A stretch of DNA of 64,000 nucleotides from Oscillospiraceae bacterium (GTDB taxonomy: Bacteria; Bacillota; Clostridia; Oscillospirales; Oscillospiraceae). The notes beneath the pieces are model-generated. The model searched no databases. It was given only the letters and a program-made list of their open reading frames with translations, and had not been told where the DNA came from. The stretch is taken from NCBI GenBank assembly GCA_902778275.1, contig CACYXE010000001.1:186001-250000 (forward strand), read 5' to 3'. Positions within the stretch are counted from its first letter, which is position 1. Every line of letters starts with the position of its first letter. Shown piece after piece: positions 4,918 to 40,971 of this stretch. The translations under genes and the position numbers were made by a program.

Positions 4918-6735
4918 TTACTTTCCGACACACTCGTCAAGGCCCAGCTTCTTCAAAGTCTCGTCGGTGGGGAAGGCGTTGACCCAGCCGCGGGCTTCAT
5001 AGTACTGCGGCAGGGTGATATCGAGCTTGCTGACCATGCCCTTGGAAGGACCGTTGGAAATGGGCTCGGTCAGCAGGCGCTTGGGCAGGCGGTCATCCTC
5101 CGGCTTCATACCGGCGGCCTTGTTGAACATACGCTCGATGTTGAAGATGCGATCACCAACCTCCAGAAGCTCCTCCGGCGTATAGTTCGTGCCGGTGGCG
5201 GCATTGAGCAGGGAAGCATACTCGGGAGCGCCCAGAGCAAAGGAGGTGAACAGGCAGTTGCCCATGGAGTCGATAACAGCGGTCAAATCCTGGAAGGTCT
5301 TGGCCCAACCGGCTTTCTCTTCGGTCAGGGTGCGGTCCAGCTGGGCCGGAATACCGAGAACTTCGGGGGCGATCATATAGCCGCGGACGTGAGCAGCGCC
5401 GCAGTTGGCGGTGGCATAGTTGATGCCGATACCCTGAATGGCACGGGCGTCATAGGCGGGGATCTCCTGCTTTTTGACGCTCATGGAGAACTCGGGGTGA
5501 CCATAGGCCTCGCACAGACGGGCGGAGCCGGAGCTCATGAGCCATTCCAGCTCGGTCTGAGGATCGCCCATACGCTTGGTCCATTCGGTCAGTGCTTTCT
5601 TGCTGCCCCACTCCAGAGGAACGCCGCCGCAGTCCTCCTCCTTGATGTAGCCGCGCTGGTAAAGCTCCATGGCAGCGGCAATGGTGCAGGGCACGCCGAT
5701 GGCGTCCAAGCCGTACTCGTTGCAGAGACGGTTGGCCTCGTCGATGGTGTAGAGATCGTCGTTGCCGCAGTCGCTGCCGTAAGCCCACAGAGGCTCATAC
5801 TCGGGGCCGCCGACGATCTTGTCGTCATGCTTGATAATACGGCCGCAGGCGATGGGGCAGTGGTAGCAGGCGCCGGGCTTGACCAGATACTTCTCTGCCA
5901 GAGTCTCGCCGGAGAACTCGTCGGCGGTGGGGCAATAGCTCTCCTGCCAGTTCTTGGTGGGCAGGGCGCCGATGCCGTTGATGACGTTGACCAGGGAAGC
6001 GGTGCCCAGGGCGCGCAGACCTTCGCCGGTGAGGGGATTGGCGGTCATGATCTTCAGGCAGTTCTTGTTGGCCTCCTTCAGAGCTTCCACATCGGCGATG
6101 ACGTCCAGCTGCTTGCGGGTGGCGGTGACCACGATGGCCTTGAGCTTTTTGCTGCCCATGACGGCTCCGGTGCCGGAACGGCCGGCAGCGCGGTCCTTGT
6201 CGTTCATAACGGCGGCCAGCAGCACCTGCTTTTCACCGGCAGGGCCGATGTTCAGCACGGAACAGTTGGCGCCGTGTTTCTCCTTCAGCTTGTCGTCCAT
6301 CTCTTCACTCAGAACGCCCAGATACTCTCTGGCGTCCAGGATCTCGATCTTGTCGTCCTCGATGTTCAGGTAGCACCAGTCAGGGGCCTGGCCTTCGACG
6401 ATCAGCGCATCCCAGCCGGCGAACTTGAGCTTGGCGCCCCAGATGCCGCCGGAGTTGGCGCAGGCGATCATGCCGGTCAGAGGAGACTTGGTGACGACCA
6501 TGTAACGGCCGGAGGACGGGGAATTGGAGCCGGTCATGGGGCCAGTGATGTAAACGAGCTTGTTGTCCGGGGACAGGGGATCGACTGCGGCAACACCCTC
6601 ATCATAGAGGATCTTGGTGCCCAGACCACGGCCGCCGATGAACTTCTGGGCGACCTTCAGGTCCAGCGGTTCCGCTTTGATCTCGCCGGTGGTGAGATTG
6701 ATGCGGGCGATTTTTTCGTAGTATGCGCAGCTCAT
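4918..6735 (-). CDS. aor: Tungsten-containing aldehyde:ferredoxin oxidoreductase
   Basis: Cytosolic tungstopterin/[4Fe-4S] enzyme that oxidises aldehydes to acids and passes electrons to ferredoxin. The 605-residue length is standard for AOR. Cluster ligands are visible as C290-x2-C293-x3-C297 (CYHCPIAC) and C494 (SMGNCLF), the same pattern as in characterised archaeal AOR. The N-terminal domain carries FIGGRGLGTKILYDE and TGPMTGSNSPSSGRY, typical pterin-domain motifs. The ATG follows an AGGAGGT ribosome site six bases away and a good promoter at 6796-6824. Downstream genes encode the MoaD-like, ThiF-like and radical-SAM accessory proteins. The aldehyde specificity cannot be read from sequence. 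Confidence 0.95.
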   Translation of the reverse strand: MSCAYYEKIARINLTTGEIKAEPLDLKVAQKFIGGRGLGTKILYDEGVAAVDPLSPDNKLVYITGPMTGSNSPSSGRYMVVTKSPLTGMIACANSGGIWGAKLKFAGWDALIVEGQAPDWCYLNIEDDKIEILDAREYLGVLSEEMDDKLKEKHGANCSVLNIGPAGEKQVLLAAVMNDKDRAAGRSGTGAVMGSKKLKAIVVTATRKQLDVIADVEALKEANKNCLKIMTANPLTGEGLRALGTASLVNVINGIGALPTKNWQESYCPTADEFSGETLAEKYLVKPGACYHCPIACGRIIKHDDKIVGGPEYEPLWAYGSDCGNDDLYTIDEANRLCNEYGLDAIGVPCTIAAAMELYQRGYIKEEDCGGVPLEWGSKKALTEWTKRMGDPQTELEWLMSSGSARLCEAYGHPEFSMSVKKQEIPAYDARAIQGIGINYATANCGAAHVRGYMIAPEVLGIPAQLDRTLTEEKAGWAKTFQDLTAVIDSMGNCLFTSFALGAPEYASLLNAATGTNYTPEELLEVGDRIFNIERMFNKAAGMKPEDDRLPKRLLTEPISNGPSKGMVSKLDITLPQYYEARGWVNAFPTDETLKKLGLDECVGK

Positions 6736-6898: not shown

Positions 6899-6924
6899 GC
6901 GAAATGATACGAAACAGCATGAAA
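6899..6924. promoter_or_regulatory. Operator-like site B, hexamers phased at 10 bp
   Basis: GCGAAA at 6899, ACGAAA at 6909 and ATGAAA at 6919 repeat at an exact 10-bp step, about one helical turn. The centre of site B is 54 bp from that of site A, roughly five turns. It lies between the divergent AOR and regulator promoters. Confidence 0.65.
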
Positions 6925-6952
6925 ATGGATAAAGCTTCAGGGCGCCGAAGGC

Positions 6953-6993: not shown

Positions 6994-7165
6994 GCGAAAT
7001 CAATCGAGGCTTCGATTGATTTCGCTGCCAAACCTGTCGTTTGGCAGCGAATGATTCTTATAAATCATTCGCCCGATGCTCATTGCAATGCTTATATGGC
7101 AAAACAGCTGGGCTGTTTTGCTGCGCAGCAAAGCTGCGCGGCGAAAAGCTTTTTGGCTTTTCGCC
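6994..7165. repeat. Island of six perfect hairpins
   Basis: Consecutive perfect stem-loops: 6994-7025 (14-bp stem, 4-base loop), 7021-7051 (13 bp, 5), 7047-7072 (10 bp, 6), 7099-7121 (10 bp, 3), 7123-7139 (7 bp, 3) and 7140-7165 (10 bp, 6). There is also a loopless palindrome CATTGCAATG at 7081-7090. Neighbouring stems share GCGAA/TTCGC edges, and TTTGCTGCGCAGCAAA at 7117-7132 offers an alternative fold. The outer ends are inverted (GGCGAAA and TTTCGCC). The stems differ in sequence, so this is not a simple tandem repeat. It contains no credible gene and lies in the regulator's 5' UTR. Confidence 0.9.
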
Positions 7166-7172
7166 ATCATAT

Positions 7173-7184
7173 AATCGTTATAAT
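7173..7184. repeat. 12-bp direct repeat, right copy
   Basis: AATCGTTATAAT, second copy, 203 bp from the first. It lies just outside the right end of the hairpin island and 35 bp before the regulator start. Confidence 0.8.
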
Positions 7185-7218
7185 ACTGTTGCAAGTCAGA
7201 GAGAAAGGCGGCGGCTGC

Positions 7219-8160
7219 ATGGCACAGAACAAATCCCTCTCCACCCAGGAGGTGGCGGAGCTTCTGCACGTGAGCAAATCCACCATTTATGAGCTGATCC
7301 GCAGAGCTGAGATTAACTCTTATAAGATCGGACGCAAGGTGCGTTTCACCCAGGACGATGTGGACGCCTATATCGCGCGCTCCCGCCATGAGCAGAGCGT
7401 CCAGCCGGTAAAGCGGGTGGAGATCCACAGCGCCCTGCTCAAGCCTGAAACGATATCCGGTGATTCTCTTGTGATCTCCGGACAGGATGTGGTGCTGGAC
7501 ATCCTGACAAATTATCTGCACCAGTCCGGCGTCAGCGCCCAGCGATGCTATCTGAACAGCTTTGAGGGCCTGCTGGCCTTGTACGAGGGACGGGTAAACG
7601 CAGCGGCCTGCCATCTTTACGATGCGGAAGAAAAGACCTTCAATACGCCCTTTGTGAAAAAACTGCTGCCCGGCGTGCCGGTGGCTCTGATCAATATCTC
7701 CTATCGGAGCCAGGGCTTCTATGTGGCGGCCGGAAATCCCAAGGAGATCCGCGGCTGGAGGGATCTGGCAAGGCGGGACATTTCTATTCTCAACCGAAGT
7801 GTCGGATCCAGTGCGCGCATCCTGCTGGACGGGCAGCTGCACCGGCTGAGGCTGGACGCCGGAGAGATCAAAGGATATGACCGGGAAATGAGTTCTCATC
7901 TGACCATGGCTGCCGCCATCGCGGAAGGCGAGGCGGATCTTGCCATAGGGACCGAGCGGATCTCCCGTCAGATCGAGGGCCTGGACTTTATCCCGCTGCT
8001 GGAAGAGCGTTTTGACCTGGTCGTTCGGAAGGCTTTCCTGGAAAGCGAGAGCGGCGAAAAGCTGCTTGCCATTCTGCGTTCCGTGCCGTTCAAAAAGGAA
8101 ATCAGGCATTTTACCGGCAACGATTACCGGGATATGGGAAAAATTATGGCGGAGGTGTGA
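7219..8160 (+). CDS. HTH regulator with periplasmic-binding-protein-like domain
   Basis: An excisionase/MerR-type helix-turn-helix (residues 6-55: STQEVAELLHVSKSTIYELI, then a GRKVRF wing) is joined to a C-terminal periplasmic-binding-protein-like domain of about 230 residues (COG1910 type). This domain is seen in molybdate or tungstate responsive proteins and in MoeA fusions. It probably senses tungstate, molybdate or a pterin cofactor and controls the divergent AOR operon and tupABC through the ACGAAA sites. The start is ATG 7219, with an AGAAAGGCGG ribosome site; the longer open frame upstream runs through the hairpin island and is rejected. Its stop is three bases from moeA. Confidence 0.85.
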   Translation: MAQNKSLSTQEVAELLHVSKSTIYELIRRAEINSYKIGRKVRFTQDDVDAYIARSRHEQSVQPVKRVEIHSALLKPETISGDSLVISGQDVVLDILTNYLHQSGVSAQRCYLNSFEGLLALYEGRVNAAACHLYDAEEKTFNTPFVKKLLPGVPVALINISYRSQGFYVAAGNPKEIRGWRDLARRDISILNRSVGSSARILLDGQLHRLRLDAGEIKGYDREMSSHLTMAAAIAEGEADLAIGTERISRQIEGLDFIPLLEERFDLVVRKAFLESESGEKLLAILRSVPFKKEIRHFTGNDYRDMGKIMAEV

Positions 8161-8163
8161 GCC

Positions 8164-9378
8164 ATGCTGCAAGTGAAAACACCGGAAGAAGTACTGGCGC
8201 TGATTCAAAGCAAGTTTCAGCCTCTGCCGAATCATACGGAATCGGTGCCGCTGACGGAGGCCCTTGGGCGTGTGCTGGCGGAGCCGGTCACCGCAGAGGA
8301 GTATGTGCCGGACTTTGACCGTTCCACTGTGGACGGTTATGCCTGCCGGGCGTCTGATACCTTTGGATGCTCTGACGCCATCCCCGCCATCCTGACGCTT
8401 GCCGGACAGGTGCTGATGGGAGAAGGAGCGGATTATGGGCTCTCCCGCGACAGCTGCGTCTATGTGCCCACCGGCGGCGCGATCCCCAGGGGAGCGGACT
8501 GCGCGGTAATGATCGAATATACCGAGGACTATGGCGACGGCACCATCGGTGTGCTCAAGCCCGGAGCGCCGGGGATGAATCTGATCTTTCGGGGGGACGA
8601 TGTATTCCCGGGCAAGGTGGTCCTCCCGCCCGGGCGAGTTTTGACCGCCCAGGACATCGGCGCGCTGGCGGCCATCGGAAAGGTCACGGTTCCGGTGGCG
8701 CGCAGAGTGAGGGTCGGCGTGATCTCCACAGGAGACGAACTGGTGCCGCCCGAAAAGGCGCCGGGACCCGGCCAGGTGCGGGATGTGAATTCGCCCCTGC
8801 TGACAGCTATGTTGACGGATTTCGGCGCGGAGCCGGTCAATTACGGAATCGTCGTGGACGATGAGCAGCTCCTGCGGAAGAAGATGGAGACCGCGGCTGC
8901 AGAGTGCGACGCGGTGCTGATCTCCGGCGGCAGCAGTGTGGGCGTAAAGGACGCGGCCTGCCGCATCATCGAAAGTATGGGGGAGCTGCTGCTGCATGGC
9001 ATCGCCATTAAGCCCGGGAAACCCACCATCATAGGCAGGGCAGGCAACAAACCGCTGATCGGGCTACCGGGGCATCCTGTGGCCGCCTGTTTTGTGGCGC
9101 AGCTTTTTGTGCTGCCTTTGCTGGCTAGGCTCATGGGCAGGACGCAGGAAGCATACACAGTCACAGCGGAGCTGACGGAGAGCGTCGGCGCCAACCACGG
9201 CAGAGAACAGATCAACGCCTGCCACCTGCGCAGGGAGAACGGCAGACTGCTGGCGGCACCCATCCGCTCAAAATCCGGATTGATCACACAGCTGGCCGGG
9301 GCGGACGGGTATTTCATCATAGAACGCGACTGCGAAGGTTTGCCAAAAGGCGCACAGGTGCAGGTTACTTTATACTGA
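8164..9378 (+). CDS. moeA: Molybdopterin molybdenumtransferase MoeA
   Basis: MoeA inserts molybdate or tungstate into adenylated molybdopterin, the last common step of Mo/W cofactor synthesis. The 404 residues contain FDRSTVDGYACRA (domain II/III start), YVPTGGAIPRGADCAVM, VISTGDELV, VRDVNSPLL, LISGGSSVGVKD (catalytic subdomain) and GLPGHPVA. It lies in the regulator operon and opposite an AOR with tungstate import nearby, so tungsten insertion is the likely job. A second, fused MoeA follows directly; the two may divide Mo and W or form a heteromer. Confidence 0.94.
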   Translation: MLQVKTPEEVLALIQSKFQPLPNHTESVPLTEALGRVLAEPVTAEEYVPDFDRSTVDGYACRASDTFGCSDAIPAILTLAGQVLMGEGADYGLSRDSCVYVPTGGAIPRGADCAVMIEYTEDYGDGTIGVLKPGAPGMNLIFRGDDVFPGKVVLPPGRVLTAQDIGALAAIGKVTVPVARRVRVGVISTGDELVPPEKAPGPGQVRDVNSPLLTAMLTDFGAEPVNYGIVVDDEQLLRKKMETAAAECDAVLISGGSSVGVKDAACRIIESMGELLLHGIAIKPGKPTIIGRAGNKPLIGLPGHPVAACFVAQLFVLPLLARLMGRTQEAYTVTAELTESVGANHGREQINACHLRRENGRLLAAPIRSKSGLITQLAGADGYFIIERDCEGLPKGAQVQVTLY

Positions 9379-9393
9379 GAGAAGGACAAACAT

Positions 9394-11304
9394 ATGGGAT
9401 TTGAATATTTGACCAACGTACCGCTGGAGAAGGCAAGGAAAGAATATCTCTGGAAGCTGCAGGATCAGGGATTTGAAATGCAGACTGAGATCGTTTCCGT
9501 ACAGGATTCCTATGGGCGTATTACATCCCGGGCGGTCTATGCCGACATCAACGCCCCCCACTACGCGGCCAGCGCAATGGACGGCGTGGCTCTCCGGGCA
9601 AAGGACAGCTTTGGCGCTACGGAGACCACCCCGGTCACCCTGTCAGAGGACCAGTTCGTCGTAGTAGACACCGGCGACCCGGTCCCCGAGAACTGCGACG
9701 CGGTCATTATGGTGGAGGATATCGTCAAGAACGATGACGGCAGCATCACCATTCATGCGGCGGCTGCGCCCTGGCAGCACATCCGGCAGATCGGTGAGGA
9801 TATCTGTGCCGGGGAGATGATCCTGCCCAGCTTCATGGAGGTCACTCCCGCCGCCATCGGCGCCATGATCGCAGGCGGCGTACTCTCTCTTGAGGTCATC
9901 CGACGCCCTGTGGTTGGCATCATCCCCACAGGGGATGAGATCATCCCGCCCTGCGCCGATCCCAAGCCGGGGGATATCCTGGAATTCAATTCCTCCATCT
10001 TTTCCGCCATGCTGCTGGATTGGGGCGCGGAGCCGAAGACCTATCCCATCGTGCCGGACAGCTTTGCGGATATCCGGGACATGGTTGCCAAGGCCGCGGA
10101 TGAATGCGACATGGTGATCCTGAACGCCGGCTCCTCCGCCGGACGGGACGATTACTCCACCGCCGCGGTGCGTGAGATCGGCGAGGTCCTTTATCACGGC
10201 ATCGCCATCAAGCCCGGAAAGCCGGCGATCCTCGGTTACCGTGGGGCGAAGCCCATCCTGGGGGTACCTGGCTATCCGGTTTCCGGCATAATTGTGATCG
10301 AGGAATTCCTGCGGCCGTTGATCGACGCCTGGTACGGGCGGGAGCATGAGACCGGAAGCCGCACACGGGCAAAGCTGACCCGCCCGGTGGTCTCCGGCTT
10401 GAAGTATCAGGAATATGTGCGGCTTCGTATGGGCTATGTGGAAGGCCGGCTCATGGCCTCCCCGCTGCCGAGAGGAAGCGGCGTCGTCTCCTCCTTCATG
10501 AAAGCAGACGGCATGCTTGAAGTCCCCCAGGGCACGGAAGGCTATACGGCGGGCGAGGAGGTCCGCATCCGCCTGCTCAAGGAAAAGGGGCAGTTGAAAA
10601 ACACTCTGGTCGTGATCGGCAGCCACGATCCGCTGCTGGATGAGCTGGCGGATCTGATCCACCGTGAGGACCACCGTATTTTCCTTTCTTCCGCCCATGT
10701 GGGCTCTATGGGCGGCATCATGGCCATCCGCCGGGGCGAGGCCCATGCGGCGGGCATTCACCTGCTGGATACCGAGACAGGCGAGTACAACCGCCGGTAT
10801 ATCAGGAAATACTTCCCCAACGGCGGGGTCTATCTGGTGCGCTGCGTGGGCCGCCAGCAGGGGCTGATGCTGCAGAAGGGCAATCCGCTGGATATCAAGT
10901 GCTTTGCGGACATTGTGAGGGACGGCGTACGCTATGTGAACCGGCAGAAGGGTTCCGGCACACGAATCCTGACAGACTACCTGTGCCAGAAGAAAGGGGT
11001 GGATCCTGACCGGGTCTACGGCTATGAACGGGAGGAAATGACCCACAACGCGGTCGCTGTGCAGATTGCGGGCGGCAGTGCGGACGTAGGCATGGGTATC
11101 TATTCCGCGGCAAAGCTCTATGATCTGGATTTCCTGCCGATCTGTGTGGAGGAGTATGATCTCCTGATCCCGGAGAAGGTCTGGAATTCCGGTCTGGTGC
11201 GGCAGCTGATCCGTACGCTCAAGAGTTCGGAATTCAGCAGGCGCATCGAGGCTATGGGCGGCTACACCCTGGACCGTCCGGGTGAGATCATCGACGTGTT
11301 CTGA
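9394..11304 (+). CDS. MoeA fused to a periplasmic-binding-protein-like domain
   Basis: Residues 1 to about 405 are a full MoeA (SAMDGVALRA, VIMVEDIV, IIPTGDEII, LEFNSSIF, LNAGSSAGRDD, GVPGYPVSG). Residues 415-636 form a PBP-like domain (SHDPLLDELADLI, RGEAHAAGIHLLD, QKGSGTRILTDYL) related to the C-terminal domain of the regulator two genes upstream. Such fusions are known in anaerobes; the domain is thought to bind the oxyanion or a cofactor intermediate. It starts 15 bases after moeA with a GAGAAGGA ribosome site. Its stop overlaps the next start as TGATG, so translation is coupled to the FAD oxidoreductase. Confidence 0.9.
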   Translation: MGFEYLTNVPLEKARKEYLWKLQDQGFEMQTEIVSVQDSYGRITSRAVYADINAPHYAASAMDGVALRAKDSFGATETTPVTLSEDQFVVVDTGDPVPENCDAVIMVEDIVKNDDGSITIHAAAAPWQHIRQIGEDICAGEMILPSFMEVTPAAIGAMIAGGVLSLEVIRRPVVGIIPTGDEIIPPCADPKPGDILEFNSSIFSAMLLDWGAEPKTYPIVPDSFADIRDMVAKAADECDMVILNAGSSAGRDDYSTAAVREIGEVLYHGIAIKPGKPAILGYRGAKPILGVPGYPVSGIIVIEEFLRPLIDAWYGREHETGSRTRAKLTRPVVSGLKYQEYVRLRMGYVEGRLMASPLPRGSGVVSSFMKADGMLEVPQGTEGYTAGEEVRIRLLKEKGQLKNTLVVIGSHDPLLDELADLIHREDHRIFLSSAHVGSMGGIMAIRRGEAHAAGIHLLDTETGEYNRRYIRKYFPNGGVYLVRCVGRQQGLMLQKGNPLDIKCFADIVRDGVRYVNRQKGSGTRILTDYLCQKKGVDPDRVYGYEREEMTHNAVAVQIAGGSADVGMGIYSAAKLYDLDFLPICVEEYDLLIPEKVWNSGLVRQLIRTLKSSEFSRRIEAMGGYTLDRPGEIIDVF

Positions 11305-13930: not shown

Positions 13931-14019
13931 GATGCTTACTCCCGGTTTTGTTTGTCTGGTCTTATACAGTCATTATTTTAAACGAATACGGAAGCTTTTC
14001 CCAGAGGGAAAATATATTA

Positions 14020-14045
14020 TTTCGTGTTGTTTCGTATAGTTTGGC
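14020..14045. promoter_or_regulatory. Operator-like site C upstream of tupA
   Basis: Read on the minus strand: GCCAAA (14045-14040), ACGAAA (14035-14030) and ACGAAA (14025-14020), again at a 10-bp step. It ends 21 bp before the tupA -35. Orientation and distance match site A at AOR almost exactly. Confidence 0.68.
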
Positions 14046-14095: not shown

Positions 14096-14101
14096 TGCAT
14101 C

Positions 14102-14205
14102 CAGTCGAATACGCTTCCGAGTAAGCGGTGGACGAGCCTCTTTCCGGGAACAAAAAGCGGCGCAGGATTACTGTGTCCGTATTGTTCTGGACAGAGGTTT
14201 TTTAA
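14102..14205 (+). ncRNA. Candidate structured leader (riboswitch or attenuator) of tupA
   Basis: The leader contains a GCTT-CCGAGT-AAGC stem-loop at about 14112-14125 and a G-rich core around GGTGGACGAGCC and CCGGGAAC. These are followed by a TGTCC/GGACA stem and a TTTTTT run just before the tupA ribosome site CTGGAGG. A conserved-looking core plus a terminator-like hairpin ahead of a tungstate transporter suggests metal-cofactor control, such as the Moco/Tuco riboswitch class. I cannot match it to that consensus by eye. Confidence 0.45.
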
Positions 14206-14226: not shown

Positions 14227-15285
14227 ATGAAAAAGACAATATCCCTGTTGCTTGCACTGGTCATGATCTTTGCCCTTGCCGCCTGCGGCAGCCAGACCGC
14301 CGCCCCCGCGGCGACGGAAGCTCCCGCGCCGGCGGAAGAGCCCGCTGCCGAGCCCGCGGCTGAGCCGGTTGCTGAAGAGCCTGCTGAACCGGAAGCCGAC
14401 GCCCTTGTGGTCGATACCACGATCCTCAAGGAAGCCGACGACAACATGATCAACACCTACACGCTGCTGGCTGTCAATCCCGACGCGCCCTTCGTGGACG
14501 CTGACGGCAACGCGGTCGCGGATGTGGAGCTGAACACCGTGGGCGCTGCTGCTCTTATCAACTGGCTGCTGAGCGAGGAAGGCCAGGACATGGCCGCAAA
14601 CTATGGCTTTGCCGAGTATGGCGAGTACCTGTTCTACCTGAAGGACGACCGGCCCATCTCCACGGCTGAGATCCCCGCCGCCACCGAAGAGACCAAGCTG
14701 ATCCGCCTGTCCACCACCACCTCCGTCAATGACTCCGGCCTGCTGGGCTACCTGCTGCCGGTCTTTGAAGAGAAATACGGCTATGAGGTGGAGGTCTACT
14801 CCGCCGGCACGGGCAAGGCCATTGCCAACGCAAAGATGGGCAATGCCGACCTGATCCTGGTCCATTCCAAAAAGCAGGAGGAAGCTTTTGTGGAAGAAGG
14901 CTTCGCCTATGTGCTGGAGGGCATGGAAGCTGAGCGCATGAGCTACATGTACAACTACTTCGTACTCTGCGGCCCCTCTGCCGACCCTGCCGGCGTGAAG
15001 GATGCTGCCGACGTGCTGGAGGCCTTCAAGGCCATTGCTGACGGCAAGTACACCTTCATCTCCCGCGGCGACGGTTCCGGCACTCACACCAAGGAGCTGG
15101 CCCTCTGGCCTGAGGACCTGGGCATCACTGCTGAAGCAGACAGCTTTGCCGATTACACCGATTGGTACGTCTCTGCCAATGCCGGCATGGGCGCATGCCT
15201 GGTCATGGCTGAGGAGATGGGCGCCTATATCCTCACTGACAAGGCCACCTTCCTGACCTTCGTTGCCAACGACGGCGTCATGTAA
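14227..15285 (+). CDS. tupA: Tungstate-binding lipoprotein TupA, circularly permuted
   Basis: Extracellular lipoprotein that captures tungstate for TupBC. A signal peptide ends at the lipobox LAAC (C20), followed by an Ala/Pro/Glu-rich tether to about residue 60. The TupA core is clear: STTTSVNDSGLL (162-173; oxyanion TTS motif), SAGTGKAIA, DLILVHS, SRGDGSGTHTKE (279-290) and YILTDKATF (334-342). In ordinary TupA this last motif is followed by about 80 residues (N-x-Y-x-hydrophobic-AVNP, then a WL-S-EGQ helix). Here that segment is absent from the C terminus and occurs before the core, at residues 76-140 (NTYTLLAVNP, INWLLSEEGQ). The protein is therefore a circular permutant. Its ribosome site is CTGGAGG. 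Confidence 0.93.
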   Translation: MKKTISLLLALVMIFALAACGSQTAAPAATEAPAPAEEPAAEPAAEPVAEEPAEPEADALVVDTTILKEADDNMINTYTLLAVNPDAPFVDADGNAVADVELNTVGAAALINWLLSEEGQDMAANYGFAEYGEYLFYLKDDRPISTAEIPAATEETKLIRLSTTTSVNDSGLLGYLLPVFEEKYGYEVEVYSAGTGKAIANAKMGNADLILVHSKKQEEAFVEEGFAYVLEGMEAERMSYMYNYFVLCGPSADPAGVKDAADVLEAFKAIADGKYTFISRGDGSGTHTKELALWPEDLGITAEADSFADYTDWYVSANAGMGACLVMAEEMGAYILTDKATFLTFVANDGVM

Positions 15286-15362: not shown

Positions 15363-16049
15363 ATGGGTTCTTCGATTCAAAAAGCCATAGCCCTGATCCT
15401 CTCGGCGGATCGGGAACTGCTGAATATCCTGGGCACCACCGCACGGGTCAGCCTTAGCAGTTCCGTGATCGCGCTGCTGATCGGTGTGCCCATCGGCATC
15501 TGGCTGGGGACCTGCCGTTTTCACGGACGCGGCACCCTGGTGGTCATCAACCGTACGCTTATGGGTATGCCGCCGGTGGTCTGCGGCCTGCTGTTTTATA
15601 TGCTCTTTTCCGGCATTGGGCCCTTCAGGCACCTGAAGCTGCTGTTCACCGTGAAGCTCATGATCCTGGCCCAAGTGGTACTGATCACGCCCATCGTTGT
15701 CGGCAATATGGAGACCTATGTCTCGGACATCGCCCCCGCTATGCGGGAGACGTCAAAGGGGCTGGGCTTTGGCCCGGGAAAGCGATTCCTGCTCTTGCTC
15801 AATGAATGCGTGTATTCCATTTTCTCCGTTTATCTGCTGGCCTTCGCCCGCGCCATCGCGGAGGTGGGAGCCGTATCCATGGTAGGTGGTGCGATCGCAT
15901 GGAAGACCAACGTGATGACCACAGCCATCATGCAGTATACCAACCGGGGCAACTTTACCCTGGGTATCGCGCTGGGGCTGATCCTGATGAGTCTGTCGCT
16001 GGTCGTGAACGTGGTGATGAGTCTGATGCAGAGGAGGATGAGCCGATGA
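15363..16049 (+). CDS. tupB: Tungstate ABC transporter permease
   Basis: A 228-residue inner-membrane permease of the TupB/ModB type with about five membrane helices. It carries a recognisable ATPase-coupling region (MRETSKGLGFGPGKRFLLLL) and AFARAIAEVGAVSMVGGAI, the family signature. It forms the channel for tungstate delivered by TupA. ATG 15363 follows ATGAGG. The stop overlaps the tupC start as ATGA, so the two are translationally coupled. TupB rather than ModB is chosen because of the TupA-type binding protein. Confidence 0.92.
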   Translation: MGSSIQKAIALILSADRELLNILGTTARVSLSSSVIALLIGVPIGIWLGTCRFHGRGTLVVINRTLMGMPPVVCGLLFYMLFSGIGPFRHLKLLFTVKLMILAQVVLITPIVVGNMETYVSDIAPAMRETSKGLGFGPGKRFLLLLNECVYSIFSVYLLAFARAIAEVGAVSMVGGAIAWKTNVMTTAIMQYTNRGNFTLGIALGLILMSLSLVVNVVMSLMQRRMSR

Positions 16050-16699
16050 AGATCCTCCCCCTGAAAAAGACCTATGCCGGGAAGAAAGTGCTGGATCTGC
16101 CGGAGATCGAACTGCCGGAGGGACAGATCACCGCAGTAATTGGCGCAAACGGCAGCGGAAAGTCCACCCTGGCAAAGCTGCTTGCCGGGATCGAGCGCCC
16201 GGATCAAAAGAACTGGAAGGCCCCGGAGGTCAGTGTGGGCTACATGCCGCAGAAGAGCTATGCTTTTCGCATGAGCACTGCGCGCAACATCGCCATGAAC
16301 GGCGCCGATCTGGAGCGCATTGGACGATTGATGAAAGCGCTGCAGCTGGAGCCGCTTGCAAAGCAGCGGGCAAAGAAGCTCTCCGGCGGGGAGACGGCCC
16401 GAATGGCACTGGCAAGACTCCTGATGGGGAGCTATGAGCTCTTGATCCTGGATGAAACGACCGCAGCCATGGATATGGAATCCACGCTCGCAGCGGAAAA
16501 GCTGGTACAAGACTATTGTCAGGAGACCGGCTGTGCTGTGCTGCTGATCACCCACAGCATCCAGCAGGCCCGACGGCTTGCGGAGCACGTCCTTTTCCTC
16601 CACGGCGGCGAGTTGGTGGAAGAGGGGAGGACCGAACAACTTCTGACTGCCCCGATCCGGGATGAGACGAAACAGTTCCTGGAGTTTTACGGGGTATAG
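16046..16699 (+). CDS. tupC: Tungstate ABC transporter ATP-binding protein
   Basis: A 217-residue ABC ATPase with Walker A GANGSGKST (33-41), signature LSGGETARMALAR, Walker B LLILDETT and H-loop LLITHSIQQ. It is short, without the C-terminal oxyanion-sensing domain of ModC, as usual for TupC. The start is ATG 16046 overlapping the tupB stop; the open frame further upstream runs inside tupB and is discarded. It energises tungstate import and ends the operon before a strong terminator. Confidence 0.92.
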   Translation: MKILPLKKTYAGKKVLDLPEIELPEGQITAVIGANGSGKSTLAKLLAGIERPDQKNWKAPEVSVGYMPQKSYAFRMSTARNIAMNGADLERIGRLMKALQLEPLAKQRAKKLSGGETARMALARLLMGSYELLILDETTAAMDMESTLAAEKLVQDYCQETGCAVLLITHSIQQARRLAEHVLFLHGGELVEEGRTEQLLTAPIRDETKQFLEFYGV

Positions 16700-39002: not shown

Positions 39003-39170
39003 ACGAATGAATATGTATAATGTTGCAAATGCACCGATCATTTTGCAGCATATCTTGTCGGTATTTCCAATTGCGTTTTGCTGTTTAGCGTGATAAAGTA
39101 TACACATGATTGAGGTGCGCCTGCGATGAATCCGCGCAGACAACGGGCAATCGCTGTGCGGAAAAGGCAA

Positions 39171-39306
39171 AGGCGCCGAAATCCATGAAAGGCGCCTGAA
39201 CTTTCATGGGTTGGGACACAGCAGAACATGCTGTGTACTGTCGCGTAAAGCGGAGCGCAGTCCAATACGATTTCGTTGTATGGCACGCGCGAAAGCGCGT
39301 GTTTTT
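39171..39306 (+). promoter_or_regulatory. Structured leader with attenuator before second peptide operon
   Basis: Successive stems: AGGCGCC/GGCGCCT (39171-39197) and CCATGAAAG/CTTTCATGG (39183-39209), which exclude each other; ACACAGCA/TGCTGTGT (39216-39236); ATACGA/TTGTAT (39265-39281). Finally CACGCGC-GAAA-GCGCGTG (39284-39301) is followed by five T, a terminator-like hairpin 63 bases before the binding-protein gene. The bases 39003-39170 before it show no gene. Confidence 0.55.
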
Positions 39307-39369: not shown

Positions 39370-40971
39370 ATGAAGAAGCTACTCTCCATCGCATTGGTTC
39401 TGGTACTGGCCCTGGGCTTGCTGGCCGGCTGCGGCAGCAGCAACAGCGGCGCCGCCTCCAGCGGTACAGCGCCTGCGGCAGATACCAAGATCCTGTACCA
39501 TGTGCACAACACATCTCCTTATGTGACGTTGGACCCCAGTATCGAATACTCCAACGGCATGATGGTATTGCAGAACGTCTATGAGACACTGACCCATTAC
39601 AATCCCGAGACCGGCGACGTGGATCCCATGCTGGCCACTTCCTGGACACCTAACGACGACGGTACCGTTTGGGTCTTCCAGATCCGGGACGACGTGGTCT
39701 TCCACGACGGCAGCAAGCTGACCGCTCAGCAGGTGGTCAATTCCATTAAGCGTTCCATGGATCTGGGACAGGGCGGCGCCTATGTCTGGGATGCGGTCCT
39801 GGAGGAAAATGGCGGCAGCATCGAGGCTACCGGCGAGTATGAGGTCACCATCAGCTGCGGTTATCCCTGCGCCATGGATCTGGTCGCTTCCTCGGCCTAT
39901 GCGGCCTATATCATGTCCGACAGCGTGATCGACAAGGACACCGCCTGGTTCAATGAGGGCCATGACGGCGGCTCCGGCCCCTATGTGATCACTCAGGCTA
40001 ACGGCGACAGCGTGGTGCTCCAGGCCTTTGCGGATTACCGCGGCGGCTGGAATGACAATCAGTATCAGAACGTGATCATCCGCGAGGTCGCGGAGTCCAG
40101 CGCCCGTCGCCAGATGCTGGAGACCGGTGAGGCCCAGCTCTCCTGCGAGTTCTCCGCCACGGATCTGGAGGCTTTGGAGGCCCAGACCGGCAAAGTCCAT
40201 GCTTACAAGGCGGAGACCTTCAACAACGTCATTATGTTTATCAATTCTGAGACTGAGCCGGGCAGCAACGTGGACTTCCGCCGTGCATTGGCTTACGCCT
40301 TCCCCTATGACGAGACGGTCAGCCAGGTCCTCAACGGAAATGCCGAGCAGTCTGTGGGTACCGTCCCCACCGGCCTCTGGGGCCACAGCGATGAAATTTT
40401 CCAGTACAGCCTGGATATGGACAAAGCGAAGGAGTATCTGGATAAGTCCGGCGTGAATACCGACGGGCTGAAGCTGACAGTCACCTATATGAGCGGCGAC
40501 GATGCTTACGCCAGCATGCTGCAGCTCTACCAGGTTAATCTCCGTCAGCTCGGTATCGACCTGGAGCTCAAGAGCATGGAGTGGGATCAGCAGTGGGCCC
40601 AGGCTCAGAACACCGATCCCGCCAACCGGCAGGATATGTTTCTCTTTATCTGGTGGCCCGATTACGCCGATCCTGTCAGCTGGTTTACCTCCCTGCTGCA
40701 CAGCGAGGATGAAATTACCTATAACCTGTCCTATCTGCATGACGAGCAGTTGGATGCACTGATCGACGACGCGGTAGCCTTGACCGTTACTGACCGCGAC
40801 GCGGCAGAGGCCAACTATATCGAAGCGCAGAAGCTGGTAGCCGATCAGGCATACTATCTGAATCTCTACGATCAGATGCACACCTATATCATCAGCAACA
40901 GCATCGACGGTGTGGCGGAGAACCCCTCCTACTCCTATGCCATCGACTACTACAAGGTAATCGCCAAGTAA
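39370..40971 (+). CDS. Oligopeptide-binding lipoprotein (SBP family 5)
   Basis: A 533-residue extracellular lipoprotein with signal peptide and lipobox LLAGC, then a Ser/Ala tether. The family-5 binding domain is clear: YSNGMMVLQNVYETLTHYNP, LATSWTPNDDGTVWVFQIRD, VFHDGSKLTAQQVVNSI and FRRALAYAFPYDETV. It captures peptides for the permeases that follow. It is separated from the first permease by 151 bases with two hairpins, as usual when binding protein is made in excess. Confidence 0.95.
   Translation: MKKLLSIALVLVLALGLLAGCGSSNSGAASSGTAPAADTKILYHVHNTSPYVTLDPSIEYSNGMMVLQNVYETLTHYNPETGDVDPMLATSWTPNDDGTVWVFQIRDDVVFHDGSKLTAQQVVNSIKRSMDLGQGGAYVWDAVLEENGGSIEATGEYEVTISCGYPCAMDLVASSAYAAYIMSDSVIDKDTAWFNEGHDGGSGPYVITQANGDSVVLQAFADYRGGWNDNQYQNVIIREVAESSARRQMLETGEAQLSCEFSATDLEALEAQTGKVHAYKAETFNNVIMFINSETEPGSNVDFRRALAYAFPYDETVSQVLNGNAEQSVGTVPTGLWGHSDEIFQYSLDMDKAKEYLDKSGVNTDGLKLTVTYMSGDDAYASMLQLYQVNLRQLGIDLELKSMEWDQQWAQAQNTDPANRQDMFLFIWWPDYADPVSWFTSLLHSEDEITYNLSYLHDEQLDALIDDAVALTVTDRDAAEANYIEAQKLVADQAYYLNLYDQMHTYIISNSIDGVAENPSYSYAIDYYKVIAK

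Follow-up and report, generated by a model that had tools for sequence, protein, structure and literature searches.

A conserved, circularly permuted TupA-type binding protein encoded with tupBC in an Oscillospiraceae bacterium

The tungstate-binding protein TupA of Desulfovibrio alaskensis is folded into two lobes, with lobe A made of A2-R76 together with Y201-E251 and lobe B of A91-Q200. The oxyanion-site residues named for the Desulfovibrio protein are T9-11, S12, H59, R118, T124 and D170, of which R118 (the counterpart of R280 in the protein described here) affects oxyanion selectivity (accessible part of PMC5517513). Published cases of natural circular permutation in the binding proteins of ABC importers appear to be few. 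The only relevant case returned by our literature search on permuted binding proteins is Tp0684 (MglB-2) of Treponema pallidum, a naturally permuted glucose-binding lipoprotein of an ABC importer, classed as Type Ic / Cluster Bc and related to proteins of Gram-positive bacteria, many of which live as gut commensals (available excerpt of PMC4990184). That search found no description of a permuted TupA, in agreement with what the initial annotation of this DNA had supposed, and Tp0684, the nearest precedent, belongs to another fold class. A study of tungsten metabolism in the gut tallies TupA by orthology; the portion of its text available to us says nothing of chain order, and the string 'permut' is absent from the paper (PMC11980592).

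In this study, we analyzed a tupA gene (14227..15285, + strand) within the window, i.e., the whole 64,000-nucleotide stretch of Oscillospiraceae DNA. The gene has an ATG start just downstream of a GGAGGAG site and encodes 352 residues, all parts of which are given here on the + strand. A lipoprotein signal (residues 1-20, 14227..14286), with the lipobox LAA-C20 read from the sequence and Cys20 also found by script, is followed by a tether that is rich in Ala, Glu, and Pro by sequence (residues 21-59, 14287..14403). Next are the moved segment (residues 60-140, 14404..14646), assigned from profile and PDB-chain matches and a profile-profile comparison, and a connector from the former C-terminus to the former N-terminus (residues 141-157, 14647..14697), conserved in a 72-row alignment. 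The TupA core (residues 158-352, 14698..15282) contains TTTS 163-166, H213, R280, T286, and D338. The core motifs are placed as first annotated (TTTS at 163, SRGDGSGTH at 279, YILTDKATF at 334), and the core runs to the protein end, with 10 residues remaining past the last motif. The same annotation had located the moved piece ahead of the core at residues 76-140; its position stands, but its extent is about residues 60-140. Within it, residues 60-77 correspond to the last lobe-B strand, N76-x-Y78 to the lobe crossing, and 78-140 to the C-terminal part of lobe A, by alignment, with strands and helices from AlphaFold2 and lobe limits from the accessible part of PMC5517513. The circular permutation of the window TupA is real in the sequence, conserved, and of single origin. 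Its signal-and-linker part is the sole part matched at 29 other places of the same genome.

A separate alignment of the two parts to ordinary TupA had been proposed; here the segment falls on its C-terminus and the core on the part before it. In profile searches with the NCBIfam TupA model NF041772, residues 158-348 match positions 16-192, and residues 60-158 alone match positions 199-253 (E 3.5e-4). The window protein obtains 138.6 bits and does not reach the curated cut-off of 400, and it does not follow the motif order of that family (TTTS, SRGD, TDRxT, then N-x-Y...VNP and the end helix). The 400-bit cut-off is passed by 0/197 order, 0/391 class, 0/398 phylum, and 0/300 family genomes, and it is not discriminating here because the ordinary TupAs of the phylum sample fail too. 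Pfam gave clear matches on the core and, for the segment alone, one weak match to the last 24 positions of SBP_bac_11 (E 0.11). Against the chains 3muq, 3lr1, 5my5, and 3kn3 the core aligns strongly, ending at chain position 178-203, and residues 62-66 to 87-126 pair with the part of each chain that follows the core, in alignments that are weak and non-significant alone.

A profile of the moved segment (78 rows) compared with 66 ordinary TupAs gave a probability of 99.3 and an E value of 3.7e-20 over columns 175-245 of 254. Three proteins without TTTS were not used among the ordinary TupAs, and L154_41, L155_14, L157_40, and L156_1 were dropped, three with an extra regulator-like N-terminal region and one divergent. 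In the controls, the segment gave E 0.19 against ordinary TupA minus its end and E 0.62 against the permuted core, five column-shuffled segments gave E 0.012 to 0.52, and a comparison of the permuted core with ordinary C-terminal segments returned E 0.0042, the alignment spanning 13 columns right at the cut, in the overlap of the pieces. Measured against these controls, the homology of the segment is therefore far beyond chance.

In the alignment to D. alaskensis TupA, using TTTS-based numbering, T163 corresponds to Thr9, residue 348 to 180, residue 66 to 189, and Y78 to Y201. The new break falls at D. alaskensis residues 181-188, within lobe B and ahead of its last strand, and the moved piece comprises that strand and the end of lobe A (Y201-E251; lobe limits from the accessible part of PMC5517513). 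The earlier statement that the last part of lobe 1 was moved is thus incomplete, since the last lobe-B strand moved too and the cut is inside lobe B. Both new termini therefore lie on lobe B. Judged from the alignment, the chain should begin and finish in lobe B with two crossings retained, whereas ordinary TupA has both ends in lobe A.

An AlphaFold2 monomer of residues 58-352, built with 72 sequences, has a pLDDT of 93.0 and a pTM of 0.87, connector included, with strands at model positions 7-11 and 18-26; the connector reaches pLDDT 96-97 in the covering blocks. The core alone, modelled with 45 sequences and so at an alignment depth that differs from the full job (72), has a pLDDT of 87.1 and a pTM of 0.69. 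The central strand has 13 residues in the full model and 4 in the core-only model, a shrinkage that one would anticipate were the moved strand its normal neighbor, the differing alignment depth being a further variable. The best six Foldseek matches are chains of four TupA-type structures, each aligned over 189-199 columns in one sequential block, with TM by target of 0.39 to 0.63 and rmsd of 3.0 to 8.8 from a sequential aligner that is blind to permutation. These low scores would fit a partial alignment and differing lobe closure, and are no proof. The structure prediction suggested earlier as a check thus yielded a single confident fold that is weaker without the moved piece, while its comparison with known structures is limited to the sequential Foldseek block.

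The tether of the window protein, which follows lipobox Cys20, is about 40 residues long. By script, the median tether is 37.5 residues in 54 permuted relatives with a lipobox (range 13-101, the longest possibly false as the script read stop to stop) and 19.5 residues in 58 ordinary TupAs. The script flagged 23 of 77 permuted proteins as having no lipobox; L037 has the Cys, L039 and L041 are cut at a contig edge, and L056 contains unknown bases, which leaves about 19. In these about 19 of 77, a rule of thumb rather than a trained predictor places a signal-peptidase-I-like end 2-15 residues ahead of the domain. L011, L014, L019, and L024 are among the permuted TupAs without a lipobox. Lipid anchoring is probably not universal in the permuted clade, and the missing lipobox of about 19 proteins speaks against such permutations serving membrane anchoring alone, an idea raised for Tp0684. 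The suggestion that the tether geometry is altered is strengthened, since by alignment both termini and the tether shift from lobe A to lobe B, and docking to TupB may have changed as well.

The permuted order is not peculiar to this locus. A scan of one genome per species yielded 75 loci with a permuted TupA from other assemblies, of which 71 provided usable open reading frames (L010 is cut at a contig edge, and L073, L080, and L083 have short frames). Together with the second copy of the window's genome, L088, L089, L151-L153, and the window itself, they make up 78 aligned rows, 74 of them distinct, as some genomes are duplicated or nearly so across both collections. A search for homologues of the same order had been proposed, and in this alignment all 78 proteins have the segment ahead of the core, with I66, N76, and Y78 present in 78/78.

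A TupA match was obtained in 42 of the 300 genomes sampled from the window's family; the sequences of eight are of the ordinary kind, and in the remaining 34 the match is truncated, as is typical of permuted TupA. Among these 34, the window's genome and 21/21 fetched loci are permuted by sequence (six of the 21 being the same protein as rows already aligned), G1190, G1028, and G1029 show a whole permuted match in loci found through the leader RNA described below, and in G974, G1071, and G1183 the match of the end segment precedes that of the core. No TupA match was obtained in five further genomes of the window's genus. In the wider samples, TupA matches were found in 5/197 genomes of the order, 50/391 of the class, and 188/398 of the phylum; besides the window's genome, G101 and G114 (order) and G236, G392, and G549 (class) carry the permuted form. 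Most of the other matches listed in these three samples span the ordinary profile, and some were read by sequence. Eight phylum-sample genomes with weak matches were rechecked and no permuted TupA was found, five being of ordinary order and G628, G822, and G603 having broken or partial pieces.

Judging by these sequences, the permuted form is frequent in the window's family and looks rare outside it. It is what looks like the family's main TupA form, and a full-length TupA model recognizes just the core of that form. The relatives of the window bacterium are mostly from animal guts. Among plasmids, none of 116 matching records covers 80% of the query, and the 40 listed of these 116 match the core only; phages gave no match to the permuted TupA. 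G114 also carries an ordinary-order TupA-like protein, L086 (G114:C285), with a part that by eye is LysM-like N-terminal to the TupA-like domain, and L094, L096, L097, L102, and L103 are ordinary-order TupA-like proteins with N-terminal parts that are SH3-like by eye.

In a tree rooted on haloarchaeal TupAs, all 33 permuted rows retained after thinning the 78 group in a single clade with 100/100 support, nested inside the ordinary TupAs (98/83 at the first fork showing the nesting), and the stem of this clade has 1.29 changes per column. On this sequence tree, the window TupA is a descendant from within TupA. The outgroup additions were TupAs of haloarchaea, Proteobacteria, and Cetobacterium, six of eight of which entered (L166 and L171 were dropped, having no TTTS by script); in an earlier tree without an outgroup, the midpoint fell on the permuted stem and was uninformative on polarity. 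When the eight ordinary TupAs of the family were added, in a tree built without L086, L170, and roughly half of the permuted rows, the sister of the permuted clade was L213 (99/95) and the next branch L120 (99/95). L213 (G997) is an ordinary-order protein of the same family on a fairly long branch, and it is an orphan, with no tupBC in the 14 kb read around it. L086 was considered as sister and rejected, having a very long branch, and L213 takes that place in the family tree.

Duplication, fusion, and loss are a usual route to a circular permutation. The permuted gene may have originated from an in-frame tandem duplication of tupA, after which the first core and the last C-terminal segment would have been lost and a new signal peptide acquired. 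We found no intermediate with the segment at both ends, so no remnant stands behind the duplication route. A 720-aa frame of G625 was examined as a tandem-fusion intermediate and rejected, as it has one ordinary-order TupA domain, and three other frames read with it are also ordinary. This frame (L159, G625:C59, base 1218) has by eye GGDEF- and HD-GYP-like regions before its TupA domain, and is perhaps an oxyanion-responsive cyclic-di-GMP enzyme.

The neighborhood of the gene is that of a TupABC system. Behind tupA on the + strand are tupB (15363..16049), a permease collinear with the TupB model (NF041773, E 5.1e-44, 150.8 bits, below the cut-off of 320), and the ATPase gene tupC (16046..16699; ABC_tran). 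Ahead of it lie an HTH_17 + PBP-like regulator (7051..8160, +), two MoeA genes, the second with a PBP-like domain (8164..11304, +), all from the domain search, and two FAD/NAD oxidoreductases. The minus strand encodes an aldehyde:ferredoxin oxidoreductase (4918..6735; AFOR_N, AFOR_C), which we take to be a likely tungsten user, tungsten being the family's general metal, as well as ThiF and radical-SAM genes. In 71 of 74 loci, tupB starts 5-424 bases past tupA, and the contigs of the other three end about 100-145 bases past it. TupC is present in 68/74 loci, and in the stretches examined a MoeA2 homologue is found in 53 of 74 relatives and an aldehyde oxidoreductase in 28. Both TupAs found in the window's genome (84% complete) are permuted, each near TupBC and an aldehyde oxidoreductase. 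The second copy (L172, G000:C24:7000-24000) is accompanied by TupB, TupC, two MoeA, the same oxidoreductases, and its own aldehyde oxidoreductase, one of four in the genome. Elsewhere in the window, a lysine riboswitch (39102-39268, +) lies just before a gene at 39370 whose product resembles, by eye, an oligopeptide-type binding lipoprotein.

The TupBs beside permuted TupAs also form one clade (SH-aLRT 100, stem 1.15) in a quick tree of 32 permuted and 40 ordinary rows, 17 ordinary and one permuted rows having no usable TupB in the stretch. The parallel long stems of TupA and TupB would fit a joint re-fitting of receptor and permease, and also a simple long separation.

A conserved leader RNA precedes the permuted gene (14099..14196, +; model R1, 92.4 bits, the window being among the model's 14 sequences). 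It consists of a conserved stretch ending about 30 nt before tupA, with a near-invariant AAGCGGUGGACGAGCCUCUUUCC and a variable hairpin. At E 1e-6 the model matches in 51/82 sources, always before permuted tupA; the other 31 have no match at this threshold, and L151 and L076, on the deepest branches, have none at 0.1. Over 47 distinct rows, 90.7% of cells pair and 13/20 pairs changed on both sides, values favored by a structure-fitted alignment and related rows; 0/500 shuffles are as good, and sliding the partner destroys the pairing. A family scan gave matches in 22/300 genomes at E 0.01, and of 20 of these loci examined, 11 precede a permuted tupA and no TupA is seen at the remaining nine (E 9e-6 or weaker). 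The core string GGTGGACGAGCC occurs in 0/71 ordinary TupA loci in a string test, and the model has no match in eight of these loci. Rfam gave two weak, unrelated matches only (E 0.48 and 2). A Moco riboswitch as the leader was rejected, the window having no such Rfam match; among 12 relatives scanned, a Moco RNA was seen in L151 only, about 2 kb from tupA. The leader is a candidate tungstate or tungsten-cofactor riboswitch or attenuator.

Farther upstream, tandem TTTCGT repeats with a 10-bp period lie about 200 bp before tupA (14019..14045, +). The repeated unit, TTTCGTNNNN, is found at 14019-14045 (+) and again at 6899-6925 (-), between the aldehyde oxidoreductase and the HTH-PBP regulator. 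Repeats of this kind are present in 14 of 74 relatives, in 11 of them about 200 bp before tupA. It is possible that the repeats are the operator of the HTH-PBP regulator.

Taken together, the sequence data suggest, with a probability of roughly 0.88, that the protein is a working tungstate-binding receptor of a TupABC importer that arose by one ancient circular permutation of ordinary TupA. The moved segment (residues 60-140) would sit in its usual place, where it would form the final strand of lobe B, cross between the lobes for the second time, and complete lobe A, leaving the two-lobed fold with its two crossings unchanged. The protein would close on tungstate between TTTS in lobe A and R280, T286, and D338 in lobe B and pass it to TupB, the metal being destined for aldehyde oxidoreductases, and the lipid anchor (Cys20 and the linker of about 40 residues) would hold lobe B instead of lobe A. 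None of the named oxyanion-site positions is in the moved segment; T163, T164, S166, H213, R280, T286, and D338 are present in 78/78 permuted rows and T165 in 76/78. This conservation makes it improbable that the permuted protein now binds another ligand, such as molybdate or another oxyanion, or acts as a sensor. The stem of 1.29 and three clade-specific inserts do indicate much change at the origin; however, the site residues were kept, R280 included, and the operon has TupB, TupC, MoeA, and often an aldehyde oxidoreductase. There is one ModA in the window's genome, and molybdate, and perhaps tungstate, can therefore enter otherwise.

More improbable still, in our view, is an N-terminal segment that leaves the core of its own chain incomplete, whether as an extra domain or through exchange between two protomers. 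Homology alone leaves the packing of the piece unfixed, and the AlphaFold2 model is of a monomer only. However, the core has no other copy of the segment, the complete permuted relatives listed ending within a few residues of ANDGVM; the monomer model is confident and becomes less so without the piece; and the 17-residue connector combines sequence conservation with high model confidence. That pieces of two genes were joined by mistake during assembly or binning is a negligible prospect even for a fragmented genome of 59 contigs and 84% completeness, given the 75 loci in other assemblies, the second copy in the same genome, and the permuted order of all 21 family loci retrieved because their profile match was truncated. 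A rearrangement of the assembly at this locus, which had been named as a possible refutation, is ruled out by the recurrence in independent assemblies.

Beyond the preferred reading of a permuted tungstate receptor, we tentatively entertain a broader one, for which the case is still the weaker side of the balance, in which these loci represent a distinct tungstate-uptake lineage in gut Clostridia. Its receptor and permease would have been re-fitted together, with tether and docking on lobe B, and most members would be equipped with a dedicated and so far undescribed cis-regulatory RNA, a possible sensor of tungstate or its cofactor. The permuted TupA is common in its bacterial family, and with its anchor on the other lobe by alignment and its ordinary-order sisters at hand, it could directly test whether the anchored side matters for delivery.

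Compared with ordinary TupA (D. alaskensis 5my5, Geobacter 3lr1, and the TupA-type 3muq and 3kn3), the permuted form shares a homologous binding domain, the site residues, and the operon partners, but has a rotated segment order, termini on lobe B by alignment, and three inserts of about 7, 7, and 11 residues. L213 resembles the permuted clade in having IRLSTTTSVNDSGLL at the core start, and differs from it in its ordinary order, the lack of the long insert after the AVNP-like motif, and the absence of tupBC from the 14 kb around it. The likeness to Tp0684 lies in the natural circular permutation of an ABC-importer binding lipoprotein. Tp0684 has a Type I sugar-binding fold in which the first three N-lobe strands are at the C-terminus and a fourth crossing is added (available excerpt of PMC4990184). 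In contrast, the permuted TupA moves a C-terminal part to the N-terminus, has two crossings by alignment, and finds its six best structural matches in TupA-type proteins; by its fold matches and the direction of its permutation, it falls outside Type Ic / Cluster Bc.
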